This document shows positions 33,872-46,452 of a DNA stretch of 64,000 nt, piece by piece. This stretch comes from Limnobacter parvus (GTDB lineage Bacteria; Pseudomonadota; Gammaproteobacteria; Burkholderiales; Burkholderiaceae_B), in NCBI RefSeq assembly GCF_024623725.1, contig NZ_JANKHG010000014.1:124001-188000 (forward strand), written 5' to 3'. Position numbers and translations under genes: made by a program. Under the pieces are notes generated by a model. It did not search any database. It worked only from the letters and a program-made list of their open reading frames with translations, and had not been told where the DNA came from. The stretch's first letter is position 1. Every line of letters starts with the position of its first letter.

Positions 33872-35413
33872 CTACAGTTGTTCAATATTCTTGAACGTGT
33901 CGGCCACTTTTTGCCGAAGCGCAGTGCGCTGGGCATCGTCAAGGCGGGCAATGTTTTTGGCCATCAAGCCAGTGCGAGGGTTGGCTGACAGCATTTTTTC
34001 ATGCTGATCCAGAAAGCCCCAATACAGCGTGGTGAAGGGACATGCGTCATCACCCACTTTCTCGGATGGCTTGTATTTGCAGCCTGTGCAGTAGTTGCTC
34101 ATTCGCTTGATGTAAGCACCCGATGCGATGTAGGGCTTGCTGGTGAAACGGCCACCATTGGCGAACAAGGCCATGCCAGCCACATTGGGCAATTCAACCC
34201 ATTCAATAGCGTCTACATACACCGCAAGAAACCAGTCCTCAACCTGCTGGGGTACCAGGCCCGCCAGCAAGGCGAAGTTGCCGATTACCATCAAACGCTG
34301 AATGTGGTGCGCATACCCATGGTCCATGGTCTGACCAATCGAGTCTTTCAGGCAGTTCATCTGGGTTTTCCCGGTCCAGAACCACTTGGGCAGGTCTAGT
34401 TTGGCCTGAAGGAAGTTGTCATCACGCATCTTGGGCATGTCGAGCCAATACACGCCGCGCATGAATTCACGCCATCCCAGGATTTGCCGAATAAAGCCCT
34501 CGGCACTGGCGATGTCGACCTTGTTTTCTCGAAAGGCGGCTTCCGCCTTTTCAACCACTTCCATGGGGTGCAGCAGGTGCAGGTTGATTGAACTCGACAC
34601 CAGCGAGTGCCAACCAAAAGGCGTATTGGTCCACATGGCATCCTGGTAATTGCCGAAATTTGTGAAGCGTGTGGCAATGAATGTATCCAACGCTTTTAGC
34701 GCTTGTTCACGCGTGACAGGCCACTGAAAATTGGCGAGGGTCCCGGGGTGTTTGGGAAAATGTTGCTCAACCTCGGCAAATACTTCTTTTGTGATCTCAT
34801 CGGGCTCAAATGCCGCAGGTGGTGAAATTGTGCCAGGGCCACTTTTTGGAAATGCACTGCGGTTCTCAGTGTCGAAATTCCATTTTCCACCGGCGGGCTC
34901 GGCACCTTCCATCAGCACACCTGTGCGCTTGCGCATTTCCCGATAGAAATACTCCATGCGCATTTGCTTGTAGCCACTGGCCCACTTCGCAAATTCTGCG
35001 CGAGTACACAGGTAGTGGGTGTCGTCCAGTAACCTGAGTTTGATGCCCTTGGTTTTGGCCATGCCCAGAAAGTCTTGCTCAAGGCGCCACTCGCCGGGCT
35101 CGGCCATGTCAATGCTTGTGTAGCCATGTTGCTTGCACAAGCTGCCAATTCCTTCTACCAAGCTGTGTTTGCCGGTGTCGCCCAGCTTGCGATAATGCAC
35201 AGCATAGCCCGCCTTGCGCAGTTCTTCAGCAAAATGCCGCATAGCACTTAAAAACAAGGCGATACGTACTTTGTGCACCCACACCACGGTGGATTCAGCT
35301 GGCGATTCCACCATTAGAATATGTGCGGTTTCCGGGGGGTTCGCCAACAGTGCGGGGTTTTTCAAGTCGAGCTGGTCGCCCAACACCACCACGGCGTGTT
35401 TTGTGCTGCTCAT
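33872..35413 (-). CDS. phrB: Iron-sulfur photolyase/cryptochrome of the PhrB (FeS-BCP) class, probable (6-4) photolyase
   Basis: A 513-residue protein of the prokaryotic (6-4) photolyase class. It starts with KHAVVVLGDQLDLKNPALL rather than the classical photolyase N-terminus. Four cysteines at residues 354, 442, 445 and 458 have spacings 88, 3 and 13, identical to the [4Fe-4S] ligands of Agrobacterium PhrB as I recall them (350, 438, 441, 454). C-terminal YCTGCKYKPSEKVGDDAC and NPRTGLMAKNIARLDD fit that family. It would repair UV photoproducts using FAD and blue light. It follows the B12 MerR regulator and DUF2256, two bases after the latter. Confidence 0.94.
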   Translation of the reverse strand: MSSTKHAVVVLGDQLDLKNPALLANPPETAHILMVESPAESTVVWVHKVRIALFLSAMRHFAEELRKAGYAVHYRKLGDTGKHSLVEGIGSLCKQHGYTSIDMAEPGEWRLEQDFLGMAKTKGIKLRLLDDTHYLCTRAEFAKWASGYKQMRMEYFYREMRKRTGVLMEGAEPAGGKWNFDTENRSAFPKSGPGTISPPAAFEPDEITKEVFAEVEQHFPKHPGTLANFQWPVTREQALKALDTFIATRFTNFGNYQDAMWTNTPFGWHSLVSSSINLHLLHPMEVVEKAEAAFRENKVDIASAEGFIRQILGWREFMRGVYWLDMPKMRDDNFLQAKLDLPKWFWTGKTQMNCLKDSIGQTMDHGYAHHIQRLMVIGNFALLAGLVPQQVEDWFLAVYVDAIEWVELPNVAGMALFANGGRFTSKPYIASGAYIKRMSNYCTGCKYKPSEKVGDDACPFTTLYWGFLDQHEKMLSANPRTGLMAKNIARLDDAQRTALRQKVADTFKNIEQL

Positions 35414-35605: not shown

Positions 35606-36547
35606 TCAGTGCTGATTGATTTGATGGCGCGTGCGCCAATCTGCGATTGATTCTCGAATTGAATCGAGACTGGACAAGAGCACAAAATCATCAGATGGTT
35701 TTTTGCGCAGCGCGGTGGATGCGCCACCACACCAGATTTCCACCATGGGCGGCAACTTTTCCCGAAGTTCAGCCAGGGATTCAAGAACAACAGGCGAACT
35801 TTGAATTGCTGAAAAGGAAAGCGCCACGATGTTGATGTTCTGGGCGCGCGCAGCCAGCACGATGTCATAAATCGGGGTTTGGGTGCCCAGCGAAATGCAC
35901 TGGGCTCCTTCCATTGAGAAAATACATTCGGCCATCAATAAACCCAAGCCGTGCAATTCATTGGGTAAGGTGGTCAACAGAACCCGGGGGCCTTTGCGTG
36001 TCGATGGGATGGTATTTAGGGAATTGCGCAGCACCACCTGAATGGTTTCGGTGTAGATGTGCTCCTCGAATATTTCAAAGTAACCGCGCGCCCAAGCATC
36101 GCCCACCATGGCATTTAATGGGGCCACTATTTCCACGACGAAGCGTTGTAAGCCCATGGTTAAAGCAAGGCGCGACATGGTTTGTCGAAACTCTTCAGCG
36201 TCATGGCGCTTGATTAATTCCATGTAGCTGTTGAGTTCATCTAGGCTGTCAGGGGCCACATTCATGCGGGAACCCGCACTGCTCACCTCGGCCAGTTTCA
36301 CCAGCTCGTCAATGCTTAATCCGATAATTTTTCCTGGGCGATGACCGCCATCAAGAAGGCGCTTGATCACCCGAAGTTTTTCGACTTGATCGATTGTGTA
36401 AATTCGCTCGCCGAATGAATCGCGGCCAGGTTGTGGGAAGTTGTAGCGCTTTTCCCAGACTCGCAAGGTGTCTTTGGGCAAGCCGGTGTCTCGCTCAACG
36501 GCTGCAATGGAAAATGACGGTTGGCTTAGATCTGCACGCTCATTCAT
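35606..36547 (-). CDS. MerR-family regulator with cobalamin-binding photosensory domain (CarH/LitR-like)
   Basis: A 313-residue regulator. The MerR helix-turn-helix (residues about 10-80) includes DTLRVWEKRYNFPQPGR and RIYTIDQVEKL. A B12-binding module follows. The W-x9-EH helix is complete (Trp152, Glu162, His163), and the Rossmann domain has NELHGLG with His199 as the likely lower axial ligand. This matches AdoCbl-dependent light-responsive repressors CarH and LitR. The residue after the Trp is Ala instead of the His132 of Thermus CarH. ATG at 36547 is used; a GTG at 36571 would add eight residues. It heads the photolyase operon and diverges from the lipid-modification operon, so both are likely targets. 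Confidence 0.9.
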   Translation of the reverse strand: MNERADLSQPSFSIAAVERDTGLPKDTLRVWEKRYNFPQPGRDSFGERIYTIDQVEKLRVIKRLLDGGHRPGKIIGLSIDELVKLAEVSSAGSRMNVAPDSLDELNSYMELIKRHDAEEFRQTMSRLALTMGLQRFVVEIVAPLNAMVGDAWARGYFEIFEEHIYTETIQVVLRNSLNTIPSTRKGPRVLLTTLPNELHGLGLLMAECIFSMEGAQCISLGTQTPIYDIVLAARAQNINIVALSFSAIQSSPVVLESLAELREKLPPMVEIWCGGASTALRKKPSDDFVLLSSLDSIRESIADWRTRHQINQH

Positions 36548-36585
36548 ACACAAACCTGACTGCGGTGACACTTCAACATCTTTTG

Positions 36586-36656
36586 TTTGTCCTAGACAAA
36601 TTGACTTGCTACGCGTATCGAATAATAATGGAACTCGACTAAAGAATCTTAGTCAA
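36586..36656. promoter_or_regulatory. Divergent promoter/operator region between the B12 regulator and gpx
   Basis: Rightward promoter: TTGACT (36601-36606), 17-base spacer, AATAAT (36624-36629). Immediately upstream lies a perfect inverted repeat TTTGTC-CTA-GACAAA (36586-36600), and across the probable transcription start is GACTAA (36637-36642) with TTAGTC (36649-36654). On the minus strand TTGACT also occurs (36651-36656). Inverted repeats flanking a promoter suit MerR-family regulation. Binding by the adjacent regulator is inferred. Confidence 0.55.
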
Positions 36657-36771
36657 ATTAACACATTGCTTGAATATTCACCACACATATAGAGACATTT
36701 CATTGATTAACCAGCATTGTAAAGTCAAGCATCTGTCTAGTCCAGCACGCTTCAGCTTTTGGAAACCAACG

Positions 36772-37356
36772 ATGACGCTGATCCTTGCCGCAGGAATACT
36801 GACGTTTGCTGGAATTGCTCAGGCAACCGATGGAAAATCGCCGACCAACGCCTCCAGCTGCCCGACGTTGCTTGATCACAAGTTTCCCCGATTGCAAGAC
36901 GAAAAGATGCTTTCAATGTGTCAGTTTCAGGGGCAGGTACTGCTGGTTGTGAATACTGCAAGCTTTTGTGGATTCACGAGCCAGTACGAAGAACTCGAAA
37001 AACTTCAAGCCCAGTTCAAAACAAAGGGGTTTAATGTCGTAGGTTTTCCATCCAGCGATTTTGGTAATCAGGAGTACAAATCCAACAAAGAGATCGCGGC
37101 TTTTTGTAATAACACCTTTGGAGTTCAATTTCCGATGTTTGCAAAAACCACGGTTAAGGGTGATTCGGCCAACCCCTTGTACAAACAGTTGGCCAAAGCC
37201 ACCGGAGAACAACCCGGCTGGAATTTCCACAAATACCTGATTGATCGAAAAGGCCAAGTAGTCGGCACATTTAAAAGTGGAGTGTCGCCCACCAGCCCGG
37301 AAATTAAACAGGCAATTCGCCGTGCACTTGATGCACATCCAATCACAAAGCAGTAA
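36772..37356 (+). CDS. Glutathione peroxidase-like thiol peroxidase, exported
   Basis: A 194-residue peroxidase from ATG at 36772 (MTLILAAGILTFAGIAQATDG), which gives a signal peptide ending AQA. The catalytic Cys is in VVNTASFCGFTSQY (Cys type, not selenocysteine). FPSSDFGNQEY and GWNFHKYLIDRKG hold the Gln, Trp and Asn of the catalytic tetrad. The open frame extends to 36670 and might contribute a more basic signal-peptide N-region, so the start is uncertain. It probably removes lipid or hydrogen peroxide in the periplasm, and is the first gene of the rightward stress operon. Confidence 0.88.
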   Translation: MTLILAAGILTFAGIAQATDGKSPTNASSCPTLLDHKFPRLQDEKMLSMCQFQGQVLLVVNTASFCGFTSQYEELEKLQAQFKTKGFNVVGFPSSDFGNQEYKSNKEIAAFCNNTFGVQFPMFAKTTVKGDSANPLYKQLAKATGEQPGWNFHKYLIDRKGQVVGTFKSGVSPTSPEIKQAIRRALDAHPITKQ

Positions 37357-37377
37357 TTATTATTGGAGCGCTTCTTC

Positions 37378-38175
37378 ATGAATGCACCGGACGGACTTTT
37401 TTTACCTGACGAACAATCTCGCACAGACAAGCGCAACATAGCCATTCAGCGCGTGGGCGTGCGTGCAATCAAGCACCCAATCATTGTTGAAACACTGGAA
37501 GGCCCGCAGCCTTCTGTAGCCACCATCGACATGTCGGTGTTTTTACCGGGCGATGTGAAGGGCACCCACATGTCGCGCTTTCTGGAAATTTTACAGTCGC
37601 AGGAAAGCGCTCTTTCTCCTGCGGGCATGAAGCACATGATGCAGGAGATGTTGCAGCGCCTGGATTCAACTGCAGGCACCATTACCATGAAATTTCCGTA
37701 TTTTGTTCGCAAGGTAGCGCCCATTTCAGGCGTGGCCAGCTTGCTGGACTACGAGGTGACACTGGAAGCCGACAACAATGGAAAAACCACAGACGTATTC
37801 ATGACCGTGGTGGTACCAGTAACCAGCCTGTGCCCTTGCTCGAAGAAAATATCCGATTACGGCGCGCACAACCAGCGCAGCCACATTACCATTCGAGCCT
37901 TGGTGGCCGATGGAATTGCAGTTGAAGAATTGATCCGCATGGCGGAAGAATCTGCGTCGTGTGAGTTGTGGGGATTGCTAAAGCGCCCAGATGAAAAATA
38001 CGTCACCGAGCGTGCTTACGACAACCCAAAATTTGTGGAAGACTTGGTACGTGATGTGGCCATCCGCTTGCGGGCCAGCAAAAAAGTGATGGCTTACAGA
38101 ATTGAAAGTGAAAACTTTGAATCGATCCACAACCACTCGGCTGTGGCTTGGATTGAAGAAGACAAGCGCAAGTGA
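37378..38175 (+). CDS. folE2: GTP cyclohydrolase FolE2 (type IB)
   Basis: A metal-flexible GTP cyclohydrolase IB that opens the folate/pterin pathway. ATG at 37378 ([13 protein letters not shown]) has GGAG nine bases upstream and gives 265 residues. The active-site block [22 protein letters not shown] (Cys152, Cys154) and [30 protein letters not shown] are FolE2 hallmarks; the longer run is split here only for description. Its place beside photolyase genes suggests pterin/folate supply for light-related enzymes or low-zinc stress. It ends before a marked hairpin. Confidence 0.95.
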
Positions 38176-38292: not shown

Positions 38293-39606
38293 ATGACCCT
38301 GAATAAAAAAGACCACTTGCCAAAAGTTGCCATCGTGGGTGGCGGAATTTCTGGCCTTACAGCCGCTTACGCACTTCGCGACCATGCCCATACCACCTTG
38401 TTTGAAGCGAATGATTACATTGGCGGACACACCAATACAGTGGACATTGAAGTTGAAGGCAAACAAGTGGCCGTGGACACTGGGTTTTTGGTTTACAACG
38501 AGCGAACCTACCCCAACCTGATTCGCTTGTTTGAAGAACTGGAAGTAGAAACCGTTGAATCGGACATGTCGTTTTCGGTTTGCCTGCCAGAATTGAACAT
38601 TGAATGGTCGGGCACCAATTTAAATACGGTGTTCGCCCAGCGCCGCAATCTGCTTCGCCCACGCTTTATCCGAATGCTGTTGGATATCTTGCGATTCAAC
38701 AAAGAAGCCACCGCAATGGTTGCTGATGCCGGGCGCGCTGATTTGTTTCAAAGCAAAGCGAAAATGCACTTGGGCGATTACCTGGTTGAACAAAAATACA
38801 GCGCGGAGTTTCGCGATTGGTATCTAATTCCAATGGCTGCCGCAATTTGGTCTTGCCCAAGCGAGCAGATGCTTGCTTTCCCCTTGGCCACCTTCATTCA
38901 GTTTTGTCACAACCATGGTTTGCTGCAGGTAAATGACCGACCAAAATGGTTCACTGTAAAAAATGGTGCGCGCAATTACGTGCTGAGAATTTTGCCCTTC
39001 GTGGATGTTGCGCACAAAAGCACACCAGTGCTGGAGGTGAACACGCAAGGCATCAAACCCACCGTTAAAACCAGTGCAGGAACGCAAGAGTTTGATCATG
39101 TAATTGTGGCTTGCCACAGCGACGAGGCCTTGGCAATGCTGACTGGTAACCAGGCACAGAAAGACCAGTTGCAGCACATTAAGTACCAGCCCAATGTAGC
39201 CTTTCTGCACACCGACGTGAAGCTGATGCCAAAAACCCGCAGCACCTGGTCGTCATGGAACTACCTCAGCGATGTGCTGAATCCGCAACCCAGCGTGTCG
39301 GTGACATATTGGAGCAATTTGCTACAGCCGCTGCCCGTGAAAACCCCGATCTTTGTCACCCTGAATCCGATTGTGCAACCCGATGCCAAAAAAGTATTTC
39401 GCGAAATTCATTATTCGCACCCAGTTTTTGACGTACCCGCTGTGCAAGCCCAGCAGGCACTTGGCGAACTTCAGGGGCTGAACAATGTCTATTTGGCAGG
39501 GGCATGGATGAAGTATGGCTTTCATGAAGACGGCCACACTTCCGGGCTGAATGCGGCGCGTGCACTGATCAATAAACTTGAGAACAACACACAAAAGGCG
39601 GCTTGA
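38293..39606 (+). CDS. FAD-dependent amine-oxidase-like protein (COG2907 type)
   Basis: A 437-residue flavoprotein. The N-terminal dinucleotide fold VAIVGGGISGLTAAYALR is followed by FEANDYIGGHTNTV; a C-terminal FAD-contact block is VYLAGAWMKYGFHEDGHTSGL. This family (predicted NAD/FAD-binding protein) is repeatedly paired with DUF1365 and CFA-synthase-like genes. It may oxidise or desaturate a lipid-linked intermediate; the reaction is not known here. The next gene overlaps by four bases. Confidence 0.9.
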   Translation: MTLNKKDHLPKVAIVGGGISGLTAAYALRDHAHTTLFEANDYIGGHTNTVDIEVEGKQVAVDTGFLVYNERTYPNLIRLFEELEVETVESDMSFSVCLPELNIEWSGTNLNTVFAQRRNLLRPRFIRMLLDILRFNKEATAMVADAGRADLFQSKAKMHLGDYLVEQKYSAEFRDWYLIPMAAAIWSCPSEQMLAFPLATFIQFCHNHGLLQVNDRPKWFTVKNGARNYVLRILPFVDVAHKSTPVLEVNTQGIKPTVKTSAGTQEFDHVIVACHSDEALAMLTGNQAQKDQLQHIKYQPNVAFLHTDVKLMPKTRSTWSSWNYLSDVLNPQPSVSVTYWSNLLQPLPVKTPIFVTLNPIVQPDAKKVFREIHYSHPVFDVPAVQAQQALGELQGLNNVYLAGAWMKYGFHEDGHTSGLNAARALINKLENNTQKAA

Positions 39607-40421
39607 TGACGCAAACGCGTTTTCAACTCAGTGAAGTGAAACTTGCCTGGGGCTTGGTGAAGCACCACAGGGAGTACCCCAGGCCCAATGGTTTCACCAC
39701 TGGTGCCTGTTTTGTTCGACTTGTATTCTCAAACGTAAGTATCAAAACCAAACACAAATATCCCGTGATTGATGGCAATGGTTTGGTATCAGTTAGCGCA
39801 ACCAATTACGGACTGGAAGCCCATTCATTGCACTTCCCCGAGTTTGTTGAACAGCTAACCGCCCGCATGGCAGCGGAAAGCGGTGAACTGCTGGACGGCC
39901 CGGTGCACTTGCACACGTTTCCGAAAGTATTGGGTTATGTGTTCAACCCCGTCAGCTTTTGGTACTTCCACAACAACGCTGGCCAGTGTCGAGTGGTGTT
40001 GTGCGAGGTGAACAACACCTTTGGCGAACGTCATTTTTACCTGTTAACGGCCCCTAACTCAAAAGCGCCGTTGAACAAAGGCATGTTGTTGAATGCAAAG
40101 AAAGAGTTTCATGTGTCGCCGTTTTTTCCGGTTTCCGGGCGCTATGAATTCAGATTTGTGGGTAGCGAGAATCACAGCCTTGCCCGAATTAACTACTTCG
40201 AAGGCACAGTTCAGCAACTCAGCACCAGCGTTAGCGGCGGGTTGCTGCATCCAAGCACCCTGCTTTGGGGTAAAACTTTACTGAAATACGGCTGGTTTAC
40301 AGTGGCCGTGGTTGCAAAAATTCATTGGCAGGCTGTGAAACTGCTATTCAAAGGCGCGAAGTTCCACGGCAAGCCCGCGCCACCCCGTCAAACAATTACG
40401 CAGACAGAATTCGAAGCATGA
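39603..40421 (+). CDS. DUF1365 family protein
   Basis: A 272-residue protein. DUF1365-type features: RLVFSNVSIK near residue 38, LHTFPKVLGYVFNPVSFWYFH around residue 100, CRVVLCEVNNTFGERHFYLL and KEFHVSPFFPVSGRYEF. Its biochemical role is not established; family members accompany COG2907 flavoproteins and CFA synthases in photo-oxidative response clusters. No signal peptide is seen. It overlaps both neighbours by ATGA junctions. Confidence 0.92.
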   Translation: MMTQTRFQLSEVKLAWGLVKHHREYPRPNGFTTGACFVRLVFSNVSIKTKHKYPVIDGNGLVSVSATNYGLEAHSLHFPEFVEQLTARMAAESGELLDGPVHLHTFPKVLGYVFNPVSFWYFHNNAGQCRVVLCEVNNTFGERHFYLLTAPNSKAPLNKGMLLNAKKEFHVSPFFPVSGRYEFRFVGSENHSLARINYFEGTVQQLSTSVSGGLLHPSTLLWGKTLLKYGWFTVAVVAKIHWQAVKLLFKGAKFHGKPAPPRQTITQTEFEA

Positions 40422-41644
40422 CTCAAGCCATCACTTTCTCCCAGTTCCAATTGCCCAGCCATGCGCCGTCTTCTGCGCAATGGACCCTGAAATTGCTGAC
40501 CAAACTGAAGAAAGGTCGCCTGGAGGTAATTACCCCGGAAGGCGTCCATTTGCTGTTTGGCGGCGAAGAAGACCAACCCAGCGCCAAGATCAAACTGAAT
40601 TCCTGGACTGTATGCCAGCGTGCCTTGAAGGCAGGCGACATTGGTTTTGCAGAAGCCTACATTGCAGGCGAATGGGAAACCCATGACATTGCTTCGGTGC
40701 TGGGCGTGTTTCTGGAAAACCGGAAAGCGGTAGAAAAGGTGATTTACGGCAGCTTTTTGGGCAGCATCGCCTACAAAATCAAACACCTGCTGAACCGTAA
40801 CACCAAAGCACAGGCCAAGAAAAACATTCATGCTCATTACGATTTGGGCAATCCGTTTTACCAGTTGTGGCTCGACCCAACCATGACTTATTCGAGTGCA
40901 CTTTTTGATGGTGACACCAGCCTAAGCCTGGAGCAGGCGCAACATGCCAAGTACATGGCGATGATTGATTACCTAAAACCCAAAGCTGGCGAAGAAGTAT
41001 TGGAAGTGGGGTGTGGCTGGGGCGGATTTGCCGAGAAGGCTTGCGAAGCAGGTGCCACTGTTGTGGGTCTTACTCTATCGACAGAGCAATTGGCTTTTGC
41101 GAAAGCACGCATGGCCAAACAGGGTTATAGCGAGCAGGCTGATTTTCGCTTGCAGGACTACCGCGATTGCCGCGGGCAATTCGATCACATTGCTTCAATT
41201 GAAATGTTTGAAGCGGTGGGTGAAGAGTACTGGCCCGCTTACTTTCAGTCGGTGAATCGCTTGCTGAAACCGGGTGGCAAAGCTGCAATTCAAACCATCG
41301 TGATTCAAGACGAGCTGTTCGACCGCTACCGAAAGGGTACTGACTTCATTCAACAATACATTTTCCCCGGTGGCATGCTGCCCTCGCCCGCCAAGTTCAG
41401 AGCCATGGCAGAAAAACATGGTTTGCGTGTGGTGTCGGAAAAGGCCTTTGGAAAAGACTATGCTGAAACCCTGCGCCGCTGGCGTGTTCAGTTTATGAAA
41501 ACACTGGAACAGGTGAAGAATCAGGGCTTTGACACCCCCTTTATTCGAACTTGGGAATTTTACCTGGCTTATTGCGAGGCTGGTTTCGAGTACGAAAGCA
41601 CCGACGTGATCCAGTTTTACCTTGAAAAAGCGGAGAACCAATGA
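40418..41644 (+). CDS. cfa: Cyclopropane-fatty-acyl-phospholipid synthase family methyltransferase
   Basis: A 408-residue SAM enzyme that methylenates or methylates unsaturated acyl chains in membrane phospholipids. ATG at 40418 overlaps the DUF1365 stop. CFA motifs: HYDLGNPFYQLWLDPTMTYS, VLEVGCGWGGFAEKACE (SAM motif I), IEMFEAVGEEYW and IFPGGMLPS. Family proteins next to COG2907/DUF1365 genes may introduce a methyl branch rather than a cyclopropane ring, so the exact product is open. Confidence 0.93.
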   Translation: MTQAITFSQFQLPSHAPSSAQWTLKLLTKLKKGRLEVITPEGVHLLFGGEEDQPSAKIKLNSWTVCQRALKAGDIGFAEAYIAGEWETHDIASVLGVFLENRKAVEKVIYGSFLGSIAYKIKHLLNRNTKAQAKKNIHAHYDLGNPFYQLWLDPTMTYSSALFDGDTSLSLEQAQHAKYMAMIDYLKPKAGEEVLEVGCGWGGFAEKACEAGATVVGLTLSTEQLAFAKARMAKQGYSEQADFRLQDYRDCRGQFDHIASIEMFEAVGEEYWPAYFQSVNRLLKPGGKAAIQTIVIQDELFDRYRKGTDFIQQYIFPGGMLPSPAKFRAMAEKHGLRVVSEKAFGKDYAETLRRWRVQFMKTLEQVKNQGFDTPFIRTWEFYLAYCEAGFEYESTDVIQFYLEKAENQ

Positions 41645-42210
41645 AGTTTTACACGGCTCGAATGATTCAACGTGCATTGCTTTGTGCAGCCTTGCTTGGG
41701 CTTTCCCCCATGGCAGTGGCCAGTGACAATTTGAACCCACCGCCGAAACAAGTTACACAAACCATAGAAAACGCCAAAAGAATGGGCCACGGCACCCTGC
41801 GGTGGTTTGGCCTGCGCGTGTACGACGGACAACTTTGGTCGAATGCAGAACCTGAAGGCTTCAATTACAAACGCGATCCCGCATGGCTTGAACTGCGATA
41901 TGCACGCGATTTCGATGGCAGCGACATTGCCGAACGAACCATCGAAGAAATGGAAGCGATTGGTGCCGGCACGGAAGTACAGCGTCAGGGTTGGTTGGTT
42001 AAATTGACCGAAATTTTCCCGGATGTGAAAAAGGGCCACACACTGAGTGCATTGTCTACTCCGGGCAAAGGCATGCAGTTTTATCGCAATGGTTTGCCAT
42101 TGGCCAAAATAGACGACCCAGAACTGGCCGAGGCCTTCATGGGGATTTGGCTTGATCCCAAAACATCAGCGCCGGAAATGCGCCGCGAATTGATTGGCTT
42201 AAAGCGCTAA
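41641..42210 (+). CDS. Chalcone-isomerase-like exported protein
   Basis: A 189-residue protein with signal peptide (ALLCAALLGLSPMAVAS). The mature part resembles the bacterial chalcone isomerase-like family: GHGTLRWFGLRVYDGQLW, LELRYARDFDGSDIAERTIEEM and MQFYRNGLPLAKIDDPELAEAFMGIWL. Such proteins bind fatty acids or lipids more often than flavonoids. It starts at the ATGA junction with the CFA gene, so it is probably a periplasmic partner in the same lipid-related pathway. Confidence 0.75.
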   Translation: MKFYTARMIQRALLCAALLGLSPMAVASDNLNPPPKQVTQTIENAKRMGHGTLRWFGLRVYDGQLWSNAEPEGFNYKRDPAWLELRYARDFDGSDIAERTIEEMEAIGAGTEVQRQGWLVKLTEIFPDVKKGHTLSALSTPGKGMQFYRNGLPLAKIDDPELAEAFMGIWLDPKTSAPEMRRELIGLKR

Positions 42211-42222
42211 ACCATCATCTTT

Positions 42223-43623
42223 ATGAACCAGCCCAGTACACGAACAAGCGCCAAAGACCTTCTGAACTATGGCCTTTTGGGCTGGGCACTGGGCGCAGTA
42301 GCGGTTCCAATTTACATCCAGGTGCCCTACCTCTATTCCCGCATTTATGAAGTGCCATCAGCATGGGTTGGCATCATCCTGCTGATTTCCAGGCTACTGG
42401 ATGCGGTTCTGGACCCGGCCATTGGTTTGTGGGTTGACCGGCGCAGTGGGAAAGGTAACCGGTACGCCCTGCCCTTGCTGCTGGCCATACCATTGCTGCT
42501 GCTGGGCATGGCCGGTGTATTTTTCCCCGTTGGCGACAACCCCACCGAATATGCCGCCAGCTTGATGGTCAGCTTGATCATTGTGCACCTGGGCTACAGC
42601 TTCGCCAGCATTGCCTACCAGGCTTGGGGGGCAGAACTGGGCCACACCGACAAGGAACGTTCAACCTTTGTGGCTGTGCGGGAAGGCGTGGGCATACTGG
42701 GCGTGGTGTTCGCGGTTTCACTGGCGCTTGAAACAAATGCCGGGCTGATCTTCACCGTGTTTGCCGTCATGCTGGTGTTGGGCATGTTCTTGTTGCTGAA
42801 GTTTTCACCACAACCGGACAGATCTGCGCAACAAGCAACACCGACACCCGCCAGCGCTTTGGCACAAACCTTCAGCAATGCCCGTGAAAGCGTTGCGACC
42901 GCCATCCGAAAAGGATTTGCCGACATCGTGCAGCCGCTGCGCAGGCGCAATTTTCGCAAACTGATGGGTGTGTTTTTATGCAATGGACTGGCTGCGGCCC
43001 TGCCCGCCACACTGGTGCCTTTTTATATGCGAGACCGCTTGGGACTGGGCGATTCCGACCAATGGGTACTGGCGGTGTACTTTCTGGTGGGCGCGGCATC
43101 CACGGTATTTTGGGTGTGGCTTTCAAGCAAAATTGGCCTGGCGCGGGCATGGTTACTGGGCATGGTAATTTCCATACCGGCTTTTATCGTGGTGATCGCA
43201 TTGGGCGAAGGCGATTTAACCGGATACCTGTTCGTTTGCATTGTGACCGGCTTTGCGCTGGGTGCCGACCTTTCATTGCCAGCTGCTTTGGTGGCTCGCC
43301 TAATTGAAGAAAATGGCGAACGCGGCAAAACCGAGGGCACTTATTTCGGGCTGTGGAACTGGGTGAACAAATTTAACCTGGCGCTGGCGCCCAGTTTTGC
43401 GCTGGGTACTTTGCAATGGTTTAACTACTCTGCCGACATGGCAAAAACCGATATGTATCAGAATATGGGTTTGATGCAACAATTGGCCAACGACCCGCTG
43501 CTGTGGGTGTACGCGCTGGTGCCCTGCGCACTGAAACTATTGGCCATTGTGCTGCTGGGCCGAAGCGGCTTGGCCAGCCTGAACCGAACAACAACCAACA
43601 ATGCTATTGGGAGTACCACATGA
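42223..43623 (+). CDS. MFS transporter of the GPH (glycoside-pentoside-hexuronide:cation) type
   Basis: A 466-residue transporter with about 12 membrane spans. GPH/MelB-type features are LLISRLLDAVLDPAIGLWVDRRSGKGNR (here the RLLDAVLDP and WVDRRSG pieces), AYQAWGAELG, and an FGLWNWVNKFNLALAP segment near the end. Despite the family name the substrate need not be a sugar: in this setting a lipid-related compound is possible. It overlaps the DUF3833 gene by an ATGA junction. Confidence 0.88.
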   Translation: MNQPSTRTSAKDLLNYGLLGWALGAVAVPIYIQVPYLYSRIYEVPSAWVGIILLISRLLDAVLDPAIGLWVDRRSGKGNRYALPLLLAIPLLLLGMAGVFFPVGDNPTEYAASLMVSLIIVHLGYSFASIAYQAWGAELGHTDKERSTFVAVREGVGILGVVFAVSLALETNAGLIFTVFAVMLVLGMFLLLKFSPQPDRSAQQATPTPASALAQTFSNARESVATAIRKGFADIVQPLRRRNFRKLMGVFLCNGLAAALPATLVPFYMRDRLGLGDSDQWVLAVYFLVGAASTVFWVWLSSKIGLARAWLLGMVISIPAFIVVIALGEGDLTGYLFVCIVTGFALGADLSLPAALVARLIEENGERGKTEGTYFGLWNWVNKFNLALAPSFALGTLQWFNYSADMAKTDMYQNMGLMQQLANDPLLWVYALVPCALKLLAIVLLGRSGLASLNRTTTNNAIGSTT

Positions 43624-44177
43624 TTTCGAGAACCAGCCGATGGATACAACAAATGCGCCTTACACTTTTGGCTTTGGCCAGCGCTTTGGTGTTGACTGCC
43701 TGTGCCAGCCCACAACCCAGCGATTACGCCCAGGAAAAACCAGTACTGGACTTGAAAGAGTATTTCAATGGCACCATTGACGCCTGGGGCGTGTTTCAAG
43801 ATCGCTCTGGCAAAGTAGTGAAGCGTTTCACCGTGGTAATGAAATGCACCTGGGATGGCGACACGGGCGTGCTGGATGAAGATTTCACCTATTCCGACGG
43901 CACCACCCAAAAACGCATCTGGACTTTGAAGAAAGACGGCAACAAGTACACTGGCACTGCCGGTGATGTGTTGGGACAAGCAACAGGTGAAACCGCAGGC
44001 AATGCATTCCAGTGGAAATACACCATGCTGTTGCCCGTGGACGGCACCACCTATGAAGTACAGTTTGATGACTGGATGTACCAGATGGACGACAAGGTGA
44101 TGCTGAACCGCGCCACCATGAGCAAATTTGGCATTGAACTGGGCGAAGTGTTGCTGAGCTTTCGCAAACGAGACTAA
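43620..44177 (+). CDS. DUF3833 family lipoprotein
   Basis: A 185-residue lipoprotein from ATG at 43620, overlapping the transporter stop. Signal peptide with lipobox VLTAC, then a beta-rich domain: DLKEYFNGTIDAWGVFQDRS, FTVVMKCTWDGDTGVLDEDF, QKRIWTLKKDG and MLLPVDGTTYEVQFDDWMY. This matches DUF3833, a lipocalin-like family commonly found with CFA/COG2907/SDR genes. It may bind or carry a modified lipid on the inner face of the outer membrane (inference). Confidence 0.88.
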   Translation: MISRTSRWIQQMRLTLLALASALVLTACASPQPSDYAQEKPVLDLKEYFNGTIDAWGVFQDRSGKVVKRFTVVMKCTWDGDTGVLDEDFTYSDGTTQKRIWTLKKDGNKYTGTAGDVLGQATGETAGNAFQWKYTMLLPVDGTTYEVQFDDWMYQMDDKVMLNRATMSKFGIELGEVLLSFRKRD

Positions 44178-44190
44178 TTAAGGAAATACC

Positions 44191-44973
44191 ATGAGCTTCA
44201 ACCCAAAACTAAGCCAGTGGGCCAACAAGCGCGTGTGGCTGGTGGGTGCATCCACCGGCATTGGCGAGGCCTTGGCACGCCAGCTGGACCAATTGGGCTG
44301 CAAGCAAATGTTGTCGGCCCGCAGTGCAGACAAACTGGCCACACTGGCCGGTGAACTTCAACATGCAACCGCTCTGCCGCTAGACATTACCGAGCAAGCC
44401 GCGGTGAAAGAGGCCTTCGACACCGTAATGGCCGCCTGGGGTGCCGTGGATCTGATCGTGCTGATGGCGGGCACATATTCAGAAATGTCGGTTGAAGGTT
44501 TTGACATCGAAAAAGTGTGCCAGCAAATTGATGTGAACCTGAACGGCACCATGTACGTGCTGGCGAATGCCTTGCCCAAACTGCTGGAACAAAAATCCGG
44601 CCACCTGGCGATCGTTTCCAGCGTGGCGGGTTACCGGGGTTTGCCCAATTCGCTGGCCTATGGCCCCACCAAGGCGGCGCTAATCAACCTTGCTGAAGCC
44701 CTGCATGTGGAGCTGAAACCCCACAAGGTTGGTGTCAGCGTAGTAAACCCGGGCTTTGTTGACACACCACTGACGCGCAAGAACACCTTCCCGATGCCGT
44801 TTCTGATAACCGCTGAAAAAGCAGCGCAGGAAATTATTGTGGGCCTTGAGAAAGGTGAATTCGAGATTCACTTCCCCAAAGCATTTACCCGCACCTTGCG
44901 CATGCTGCGGATTTTGCCTTATTCCCTGTACTTTGCGGCTGTGCGCCGAATTACTGCTGGTCAGAAAAAATGA
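44191..44973 (+). CDS. Short-chain dehydrogenase/reductase
   Basis: A 260-residue NAD(P)-dependent oxidoreductase. Cofactor motif VWLVGASTGIGEALA, and active site Ser in VSSVAGYRG with Tyr-x-x-x-Lys in LAYGPTKAAL. KEFDTV-like and PGFVDTPLTRKN segments agree with classical SDRs. The substrate is unknown; clusters of this type suggest a keto or hydroxy lipid or quinone. AAGGAAA precedes the ATG; the next gene overlaps by ATGA. Confidence 0.93.
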   Translation: MSFNPKLSQWANKRVWLVGASTGIGEALARQLDQLGCKQMLSARSADKLATLAGELQHATALPLDITEQAAVKEAFDTVMAAWGAVDLIVLMAGTYSEMSVEGFDIEKVCQQIDVNLNGTMYVLANALPKLLEQKSGHLAIVSSVAGYRGLPNSLAYGPTKAALINLAEALHVELKPHKVGVSVVNPGFVDTPLTRKNTFPMPFLITAEKAAQEIIVGLEKGEFEIHFPKAFTRTLRMLRILPYSLYFAAVRRITAGQKK

Positions 44974-45446
44974 GCAAGTCAAATAACGCGAACGGCCTGG
45001 CCCCGCTGAACCGCCAGGAACTTTCAGAACCCTTGCGCAGGTTGATTGATTTTTTTGAACACATCACCGAACAAAGCGTGGCAGAAATGCCCAAGTTTTA
45101 CGCAGCCAATGCCTACTTCAAAGACCCATTCAATGAAGTGAACCGGGTTGAGGACATTGCCCGCATTTTTGGTGAAATGTTCCACCAAGTGAACAACCCA
45201 CGCTTTGTGGTGCACACAGCCTTTGAGTCTGGCCAGCAGGTATTCATGGCCTGGGACTTTCTGTTCGAGATGAAACGCTTTAAGGTTGGAAAAGTTCAGC
45301 GTATAAAGGGATCATCACACCTGATATTGAACCAAACTGGCCTTGTTCAGTCCCACAGAGACTACTGGGACACCGCCGAAGAGCTGTACGAGAAGATTCC
45401 GGTACTGGGGGCATTGATGCGCTGGCTGAAAAAGCAGGCAGGTTAA
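44970..45446 (+). CDS. SnoaL/NTF2-like domain protein
   Basis: A 158-residue cone-fold (NTF2-like) protein: LIDFFEHITEQSVAEMPKFY, YFKDPFNEVNRVEDIARIF and WDFLFEMKRFKVGKVQRIKG are typical of the nuclear transport factor 2/SnoaL family found in this cluster type. It has no signal peptide and may bind a small hydrophobic ligand or act as an isomerase/hydratase. It ends the rightward operon; a hairpin overlaps its stop. Confidence 0.85.
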   Translation: MSKSNNANGLAPLNRQELSEPLRRLIDFFEHITEQSVAEMPKFYAANAYFKDPFNEVNRVEDIARIFGEMFHQVNNPRFVVHTAFESGQQVFMAWDFLFEMKRFKVGKVQRIKGSSHLILNQTGLVQSHRDYWDTAEELYEKIPVLGALMRWLKKQAG

Positions 45447-45588: not shown

Positions 45589-46452
45589 ATGCTGTATCCC
45601 GAATTATTCAGGTCATTGGAATCTGTTCGATGGAACATGGAAACAGACATCAACTGGGATCAGTTTGATGCCTCCAAACTGTCTGAAGAACAGGCCCAAA
45701 CCATCAAGATGAACGCGATTACCGAGTGGTCGGCCTTGCCCGCCACTGAAATGTTCCTTCGTGACAACAAACACGACAGCGATTTTTCTGCATTCATGTC
45801 CATCTGGTTCTTTGAGGAACAAAAACACTCACTGGTGTTGATGGAATACCTGCGCCGCTTCCGCCCCGATTTGTTGCCCACCGAAGAAGAGCTGCACGCT
45901 GTGCGCTTTGAATTCGACCCAGCCCCGCCACTTGAAACACTGATGCTGCACTTCTGCGGCGAAATTCGTTTGAACCACTGGTACCGCTGTGCTTCAGATT
46001 GGCACACCGAACCCGTGATCAAGCAGATTTACAAAATTATTTCCCACGATGAAGCACGCCACGGCGGCGCTTACCTGCGCTATATGAAAAAAGCGCTGAT
46101 TGAAGTGGGTGATGGCGCGCGCGCTGCATTCAGTAAAATCGGCGTCTTGATGGCTTCAGCCCGCCGCACACAAAAGCCGCTGCACCCCACCAACCTGCAT
46201 GTGAACAAGGACCTGTTCCCGAACGACACGGTGCAAAGCCGACTGCCCGACCCCGATTGGCTGGAAAACTGGCTGGACGGTCAAATTCGTTTTGATGCCG
46301 ACTGGGAAAAGAAGGTAGTGGACCGAATTTTGCACAACATGAGCCTTCTGTTTGAGCGCACATTTGAATCGGTGCAAGACCTGAACCGATACCGAAAGGA
46401 AGTGATTGCGCGCTTGGGCACCACAGATGAACCGGTTGGCTCGGCGGCTTAA
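45589..46452 (+). CDS. Ferritin-like di-iron protein
   Basis: A 287-residue helical protein with two Glu-x-x-His-type iron motifs: EEQKH (near residue 80) and DEARHGG (near residue 150), plus an additional Glu in GEIRLNHWYR. This pattern fits the ferritin-like/acyl-ACP desaturase or AurF-type di-iron superfamily. The reaction could be an oxidation or desaturation; the substrate is unknown. It follows the stress operon after 142 bases and may have its own promoter, so membership in the module is possible but not shown. Confidence 0.8.
   Translation: MLYPELFRSLESVRWNMETDINWDQFDASKLSEEQAQTIKMNAITEWSALPATEMFLRDNKHDSDFSAFMSIWFFEEQKHSLVLMEYLRRFRPDLLPTEEELHAVRFEFDPAPPLETLMLHFCGEIRLNHWYRCASDWHTEPVIKQIYKIISHDEARHGGAYLRYMKKALIEVGDGARAAFSKIGVLMASARRTQKPLHPTNLHVNKDLFPNDTVQSRLPDPDWLENWLDGQIRFDADWEKKVVDRILHNMSLLFERTFESVQDLNRYRKEVIARLGTTDEPVGSAA

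Follow-up and report, generated by a model that had tools for sequence, protein, structure and literature searches.

CarH of Thermus carries a His (His132) directly after a conserved Trp (Trp131), and it is this His that provides for bis-His ligation of the cobalamin after light. The need of bis-His ligation for the disassembly of CarH in the light is disputed, two results obtained on the H132A variant being in conflict: after aerobic illumination the variant was found mostly tetrameric, whereas an earlier study reported disassembly (PMC10442372). The variant binds AdoCbl normally, with an unaffected pocket, and its lit spectrum, shifted from 359 nm to 352 nm, resembles that of hydroxo-Co(III) (PMC10442372). 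Crystal structures of H132A are available (8c35-8c37). The head-to-tail dimer of the Thermus protein is reported to be held by the pair Arg176-Asp201, with Arg149 and residue 178 proposed as an extra pair.

Cobalamin photoreceptors lacking this His are already known. At the place of His132, CtMerR has an Arg, SasPcob a Gln and AbDPcob a Tyr, and light nevertheless turns the CtMerR tetramer into monomers, the lit state holding aquo- or hydroxocobalamin (PMC11796333). With biliverdin bound, SasPcob passes from dimer to monomer on light, and its lit, monomeric form has water or hydroxide on Co(III) and a shifted Glu/His helix (PMC10979010); without biliverdin it is monomeric in both dark and light (PMC11796333). 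The data on CtMerR and SasPcob are a direct precedent for a His-free mechanism. Among myxobacterial CarH proteins, His follows Trp in many but not all (PMC9304148).

Two further systems are relevant. The class II LitR repressors of Pseudomonas (PplR, PmlR) have light-inducible phrB, FAD oxidoreductase, ufaM and folE genes as neighbours; they are described as having no full B12-binding domain, a LOV partner and the operator T(G/A)TACA-N12-TGTA(C/T)A (PMC9758184). Myxococcus CarA retains the B12 motif, yet is reported to function without B12. A literature search restricted to open-licence papers returned no description of a betaproteobacterial class I CarH.

Domain organisation of the Limnobacter protein

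The features found in the window, the whole stretch of 64,000 nucleotides of Limnobacter parvus DNA analysed here, are collected in Table 1. The carH reading frame begins with ATG, an alternative longer start being the GTG at 36571. Its MerR_1 and B12-binding_2 domains were detected above the Pfam cut-offs and its B12-binding domain 0.1 bit below (32.0 bits for a cut-off of 32.1). The MerR, B12-binding_2 and B12-binding set of class I CarH/LitR is therefore present, and the fold concurs. In the AlphaFold model (pLDDT 88.2, pTM 0.77, built with 61 sequences) the B12-binding_2 bundle is formed by helices 99-113, 117-131, 133-153 and 159-177.

Table 1. Features of the carH region (positions in the window)
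Feature	Position	Strand	Basis
DPRP-type (cryptochrome/photolyase) protein, downstream of carH	33872..35413	-	Pfam
carH ORF, CarH/LitR-type MerR regulator, 313 aa, ATG start	35606..36547	-	ORF list, Pfam, PDB match, AlphaFold model
B12-binding Rossmann domain, residues 188-278	35714..35986	-	Pfam, fold matches
His199 in ELHGLG, predicted lower axial ligand	35951..35953	-	106/106 rows
B12-binding_2 four-helix bundle, residues 108-173	36029..36226	-	Pfam, model
Glu162-His163 of W-x9-EH	36059..36064	-	106/106 rows
Ala153, codon GCG, at the place of Thermus His132	36089..36091	-	Alignment
Trp152 (Thermus Trp131)	36092..36094	-	106/106 rows
His115, clade-specific near-invariant His, in the helix 1-2 loop of the bundle	36203..36205	-	Alignment, model
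MerR_1 DNA-binding domain, residues 12-74	36326..36514	-	Pfam
15-bp dyad TTTGTCCTAGACAAA, predicted CarH operator	36586..36600	.	Upstream alignment, pattern counts
Sigma70-like promoter TTGACT-17-AATAAT, abutting the operator and facing the GPx/folE2/ufa side	36601..36629	+	Promoter scan
Glutathione peroxidase-like (GPx) ORF, divergent from carH	36670..37356	+	ORF list, Pfam
FolE2 GTP cyclohydrolase	37363..38175	+	Pfam
FAD oxidoreductase, UfaD-like (name inferred from cluster)	38293..39606	+	Pfam; PMC7380195
DUF1365, UfaO domain of furan fatty acid synthesis	39603..40421	+	Pfam; PMC7380195
Cyclopropane-synthase-like methyltransferase, UfaM-like (name inferred)	40325..41644	+	Pfam, NCBIfam; PMC7380195
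Chalcone-isomerase-like, MFS, DUF3833, SDR and SnoaL/NTF2-like genes, same cluster	41641..45446	+	Pfam, conservation

The best solved relative in a PDB search was Thermus CarH (3whp, 5c8d; E about 3e-27). When the cobalamin domain of the model was submitted to a fold search, the best matches were SasPcob (8j2w, Z 21.9), CtMerR (8jbt, Z 21.0) and Thermus CarH (5c8e, Z 20.5); Z values less than 1 apart are to be read as ties, and such matches do not discriminate between lit and dark states. The recognition helix, RVWEKRY at residues 29-35, conforms to RxWERRY, the first Arg of ERRY being replaced by Lys as in 22 of 106 aligned rows. With 124.4 bits against a cut-off of 400 for the NCBIfam CarH equivalog NF052513, the protein falls outside that narrow family, yet its sequence suggests that it works like a CarH. 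Homologues are 94% identical in Limnobacter sp. P1 and 84% in L. humi.

The 106 rows (95 distinct sequences, some genes occurring twice) are the ORFs scoring above 100 bits from 114 loci and the window, mostly from Burkholderiales; homologues below 100 bits were left out, for instance one with Glu after Trp (locus L027), as were weaker matches in the related genomes to which no locus had been assigned. From the named collection, which gave 578 confirmed relatives, the 80 best loci were taken, so that the sample is skewed towards near relatives. With an E-value limit of 0.001, 30 of 60 related genomes gave a match, in part only to other B12 proteins, and 24 hold a strong homologue (at least 183 bits). 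A homologue was found in 15 of 16 Limnobacter genomes, the one lacking it being 85% complete.

The cobalamin site and the residue after Trp152

The protein shares with Thermus CarH the domain order, W-x9-EH, the lower axial His, GxxW and GxxxP, with 78 identical residues out of 281 aligned. Thermus G128, W131, E141, H142, H177, G199 and P203 correspond to G149, W152, E162, H163, H199, G221 and P225, and Thermus H132 to A153. In the 106 rows G149, W152, E162, H163, E197, H199 and G221 are invariant and P225 is found in 105; for EH, one of the two search patterns used on the named collection contained these residues, the other lying in the DNA-binding domain. The preliminary description had placed W152-A153, E162-H163 and H199 of ELHGLG in the frame at 35606-36547, as translation and alignment confirm, and its view that the cobalamin site is kept while the Thermus upper-ligand residue is missing is borne out by the 106 rows.

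Its treatment of Ala at this position as a peculiarity did not survive the comparison. Residue 153 is Ala in 56 rows, Met in 24, Leu in 8, Ser in 7, Val in 5, Ile in 5, Thr in 1 and His in none (46, 24, 8, 7, 4, 5, 1 and 0, respectively, in the 95 distinct sequences), so that the LitR/CarH alignment which that description had proposed as a check gives Ala as the commonest residue; CtMerR and SasPcob also lack the His. Ala occupies the position in all 15 Limnobacter homologues, which makes a sequencing slip very unlikely.

A further alignment was built from 12 matches (E 1e-15) in a sample of 398 Pseudomonadota genomes and from plasmid records. His follows Trp in Thermus thermophilus (two strains) and T. 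brockianus. The residue is Glu in Azoarcus and Eleftheria, Gln in Allorhizobium, Ala in Rhizobium rhizoryzae, Ala (two copies) or Arg in Caballeronia, and Met, Leu, Val, Ser or Asp in the remaining sequences. Among the Trp-bearing sequences compared, His after Trp is thus limited to Thermus. The Persicobacter protein lacks EH, and a Gemmatirosa plasmid homologue (L138:2908) has Val-His for Trp-x, its His being present with Trp and EH missing. As judged from these alignments, Ala after Trp is ordinary in the Burkholderiales clade, and His is a trait of some CarH branches and not of the whole family; a His-free CarH-type repressor looks like a common natural variant in this bacterial order. At least 29 changes were counted at position 153 on a tree made by a quick method (93 rows), a rough count only, given with a long-branch warning.

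Other parts of the site depart from published signatures. At the GxxH position the protein reads NELH, with Asn196 in place of a Gly that is found in 26 of the 106 rows; the SignatureFinder light-responsive signature is therefore incomplete here, GxxW, EH and GxxxP being present and GxxH absent. About three quarters of the rows would escape the published signature mining, in which GxxH is required, 80 of 106 being without that Gly. The B12 motif given for class I CarH/LitR, D/ExHx2G/Px41SxT/Vx22-27GG (PMC9304148), is matched in spacing by E197-x-H199-x2-G202-x41-S244-x-S246-x27-GG, with Ser at the T/V position (Ser in 85 and Thr in 21 of the 106 rows).

These residues bear on whether the cobalamin domain is used at all. 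A repressor acting independently of B12 with a vestigial cobalamin domain, after the manner of CarA, has in its favour that CarA itself keeps the B12 motif. However, CarA lacks the Trp of W-x9-EH, which is present here as Trp152 and in 106 of 106 rows, and the invariance of the site across the clade argues against decay of the domain; we regard this explanation as highly improbable. With no His at position 153, that residue cannot supply the upper ligand of a Thermus-like bis-His photoproduct.

His115 as a candidate upper ligand

His115 is His in 101 of the 106 rows; at this position T. thermophilus has Gly and T. brockianus has Ala. In the model, W152/A153 end helix 3 and E162/H163 start helix 4; the up-down topology of the bundle would therefore bring H115, W152/A153 and E162/H163 to one end of it. 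His115 could on this model serve as an alternative cobalt ligand, and the protein could be the same AdoCbl light sensor with H115 swinging in as substitute upper ligand, the bis-His state then being reached from elsewhere in the chain. Near-invariance in the clade and the modelled location speak for this. The position nevertheless varies in more distant His-free relatives, where H115 can also be missing (Ser, Gly, Arg, Asn or Gln in loci L140/L141, L127, L128, L129 and L126), and the published His-free sensors are reported to work without need of such a ligand. A role of H115 in place of His132 is thus unlikely.

Cofactor supply

Each of the 24 genomes holding a strong homologue also encodes a PduO-type adenosyltransferase, compared with 25 of the remaining 36; 15 of the 24 belong to one genus, so that these counts are not independent. 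The AdoCbl enzyme families searched were the mutase PF01642, EutB (PF06751) and NrdJ (TIGR02504), the last two in 12 chosen genomes. Three genomes (G034, G036 and G051) hold the homologue and the adenosyltransferase, with mutase and EutB absent and NrdJ below cut-off, which leaves the CarH-like protein as sole AdoCbl user among the families searched. The genome of L. parvus itself encodes a 1118-residue mutase, IcmF-like by length, and AdoCbl is thus available there for other reasons too.

The preliminary description had suggested that another form of cobalamin might be involved. A sensor of MeCbl, hydroxocobalamin or B12/redox status, and not of light through AdoCbl, would fit the missing bis-His lock, the small residues at position 153 and the Asn for Gly at GxxH. 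Against it, the adenosyl contacts Trp152 and Glu162 are invariant, the adenosyltransferase accompanies every strong homologue, including in the three genomes without the other AdoCbl enzymes searched, and Thermus CarH is reported to remain monomeric with MeCbl. We consider such a sensor very unlikely, and another cobalamin form was rejected as the main reading on the conserved adenosyl contacts and the presence of the adenosyltransferase.

The predicted operator and promoter

Alignment of 12 upstream loci (11 relatives and the window) revealed the conserved block AGTCAA-TTTGTCTAGGACAA, and the clade pattern TTTGTC-N-W-N-GACAAA lies just upstream of carH. Its core, TTGTC-N3-GACAA, was found within 350 bp upstream in 35 of 75 loci exactly and in 66 of 75 with at most one mismatch (nearest loci excluded), versus none of 75 base-shuffled upstream stretches with at most one mismatch. 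Over 80 loci, the 28,000 upstream bases contain 42 exact copies of TTGTC-N-W-N-GACAA (in 40 loci), whereas the other 1,300,022 bases contain 2. All 69 profiled sites have A or T at their centre; every dyad consequently carries TnnACA, the published CarH half-site, on one strand. The published Thermus operator consists of three 11-bp direct repeats, whereas the conserved element here is one dyad; when tandem 11-bp nnnnTnnACAn repeats were looked for, by visual inspection and with the site profile, no second conserved repeat appeared in the 25-bp flank.

The dyad listed in Table 1 is the single perfect copy in the window, and it is there that CarH would bind. Five dyads with at most two mismatches were counted in the window for 2.59 expected, so that the four other matches carry no meaning. 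With at most one mismatch, the L. parvus genome has 9 dyads versus 7 for a reversed-pattern control, the carH site alone being perfect, and the 16 genomes together have 214 versus 125. The promoter scan returned 2 promoter-like sites for 0.8 expected, the one not listed in Table 1 being a 9/12 match.

Neighbouring genes and probable targets

The genes from 38293 to 45446 form a complete-looking cluster of furan-fatty-acid type beside a B12 regulator, which some three quarters of the long loci retain. UfaM, UfaD and UfaO are reported to be enough for furan fatty acid in Rhodobacter (PMC7380195). A ferritin-like/AurF-like protein at the cluster end (45589-46452; weak Pfam matches) has relatives in 24 of 48 long loci. 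The carH gene of Thermus has phytoene synthase as neighbour, whereas furan-fatty-acid genes stand here; a phr gene lies near carH in Thermus too.

Conservation was assessed on the 48 loci of at least 18 kb, relatives being counted at 60 bits or more. The most frequent were the FAD oxidoreductase (38/48), DUF1365 (37/48) and the methyltransferase (37/48), followed by SDR (35/48), DUF3833 (33/48), MFS (32/48), the chalcone-isomerase-like protein (31/48) and the SnoaL-like protein (29/48); SDR and MFS are large families, and some relatives counted may be paralogues. GPx was found in 19, folE2 in 15 and the DPRP photolyase in 10 of the 48, and 8 loci contain none of the tested genes. The same cluster adjoins the homologue of Azoarcus. 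The adjacent, conserved furan-fatty-acid/photoprotection cluster is the probable target of CarH, and the control of similar light-induced genes by Pseudomonas class II LitR (PMC9758184) supports a role in light.

The same parallel raises the question of where light enters. The repressor could bind cobalamin while light acts through a separate BLUF or LOV flavin photoreceptor antagonising it, like the short LOV protein on Pseudomonas class II LitR. BLUF domains occur in all 16 Limnobacter genomes, and the similar gene set of Pseudomonas is reported to be controlled through LOV (PMC9758184). On the other side, the BLUF genes of L. parvus are on contig C6 and carH on C4, the LOV core motif was absent from all 16 Limnobacter genomes (searched with an exact degenerate pattern, which a divergent LOV would escape), and the Rossmann domain that is missing in class II LitR, defined by a four-helix domain only and a LOV partner, is present here with its invariant ligand residues. 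We therefore hold a flavin route improbable. The two BLUF domains of the genome lie at G000:C6:166789-167064 and 191357-191629.

Proposed mode of action and oligomeric state

Together these results point, with fair confidence, to a class I-like, AdoCbl-dependent CarH/LitR acting as a light-released repressor of light-protection genes, whose lit state would be aquo- or hydroxo-Co(III) and not bis-His. The analysis itself gives the residues, domains and fold, the lack of the His throughout the clade, the conserved dyad and gene cluster and the genes for AdoCbl supply; AdoCbl binding, light response, lit-state ligand, oligomer and direction of regulation are proposed. In the dark, His199 would hold AdoCbl base-off, with Trp152 and Glu162/His163 covering its adenosyl group. 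Once assembled, the protein would occupy the dyad next to the -35 box and repress the GPx-folE2-furan fatty acid genes on the divergent side, and probably carH itself. In the light the Co-C bond would break; without His at 153, water or hydroxide would come to lie above the cobalt and His199 below, as in the published His-free photoreceptors. The adenosyl wedge being gone and the helix with Glu162/His163 having moved, the dimer would then loosen and release the DNA.

The described proteins differ from this one in several respects. CtMerR (Chloracidobacterium thermophilum, 8jbs/8jbt) likewise combines a MerR and a cobalamin domain with no His after Trp, but has Arg instead of Ala and is distant (18% over 212 aligned residues). 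SasPcob (8j2w/8j2x), the best structural match of the cobalamin domain, is also His-free (Gln) but contains a biliverdin domain and lacks a MerR domain. Engineered Thermus H132A is alike in local sequence, EAWARG of 8c35 matching GDAWARG here. It is, however, a loss in a protein built for bis-His, whereas the present clade has also lost the interface salt-bridge residues. Thermus R176-D201 corresponds to L198/Q223, and the R149-178 pair to Q170/G200; Gln occupies position 223 in 100 of the 106 rows, and just 8 have Arg at position 198. Thermus G192 is retained as G214 (104 of 106 rows), while G160 is replaced by Pro181 (Pro in 93 of 106). As the Thermus salt-bridge residues are gone, the oligomeric state cannot be assumed.

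Several observations weigh against the light-released repressor proposed here. In one study H132A, its nearest engineered counterpart, remained largely a tetramer when illuminated in air, although an earlier one reported disassembly; light could enter elsewhere, given BLUF in all 16 Limnobacter genomes; the Thermus interface pairs are lost, the NF052513 score is below cut-off and the GxxH Gly is Asn196; and one-mismatch dyads in the L. parvus genome hardly exceed their control. A fuller proposal, in which a Burkholderiales His-free subtype binds as a dimer to a single 15-bp dyad, is released through the adenosyl wedge without a bis-His lock (or with H115 as substitute ligand) and counters light damage by inducing the synthesis of furan fatty acids rather than carotenoids, is tentative and, taken as a whole, rather doubtful. 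A naturally His-free clade, whose member in the window has Ala just as the engineered variant does, allows the disputed need of bis-His ligation to be asked of a protein kept by evolution, for which the conserved dyad is a ready DNA target.

Further dyads

Two loci, from Thiomonas (L107) and from a proteobacterium (L108), have two exact dyads each, 53-54 bp apart and about 140-250 bp upstream of carH. In three Limnobacter genomes examined, a second dyad precedes SDR, photolyase-like and DUF3429 genes, with one mismatch in L. parvus and in G007 and perfect in G004. In the L. parvus copy (L163:1225-3866, G000:C1) the photolyase-like protein has 443 residues, with the FAD-binding domain PF03441 at residues 88-228 and no antenna domain match. 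A third dyad stands at the start of a small protein in three Limnobacter genomes (L164:4073 in G000:C17, L165:4417 and L167:4297); the L165 copy of this protein has no Pfam match.
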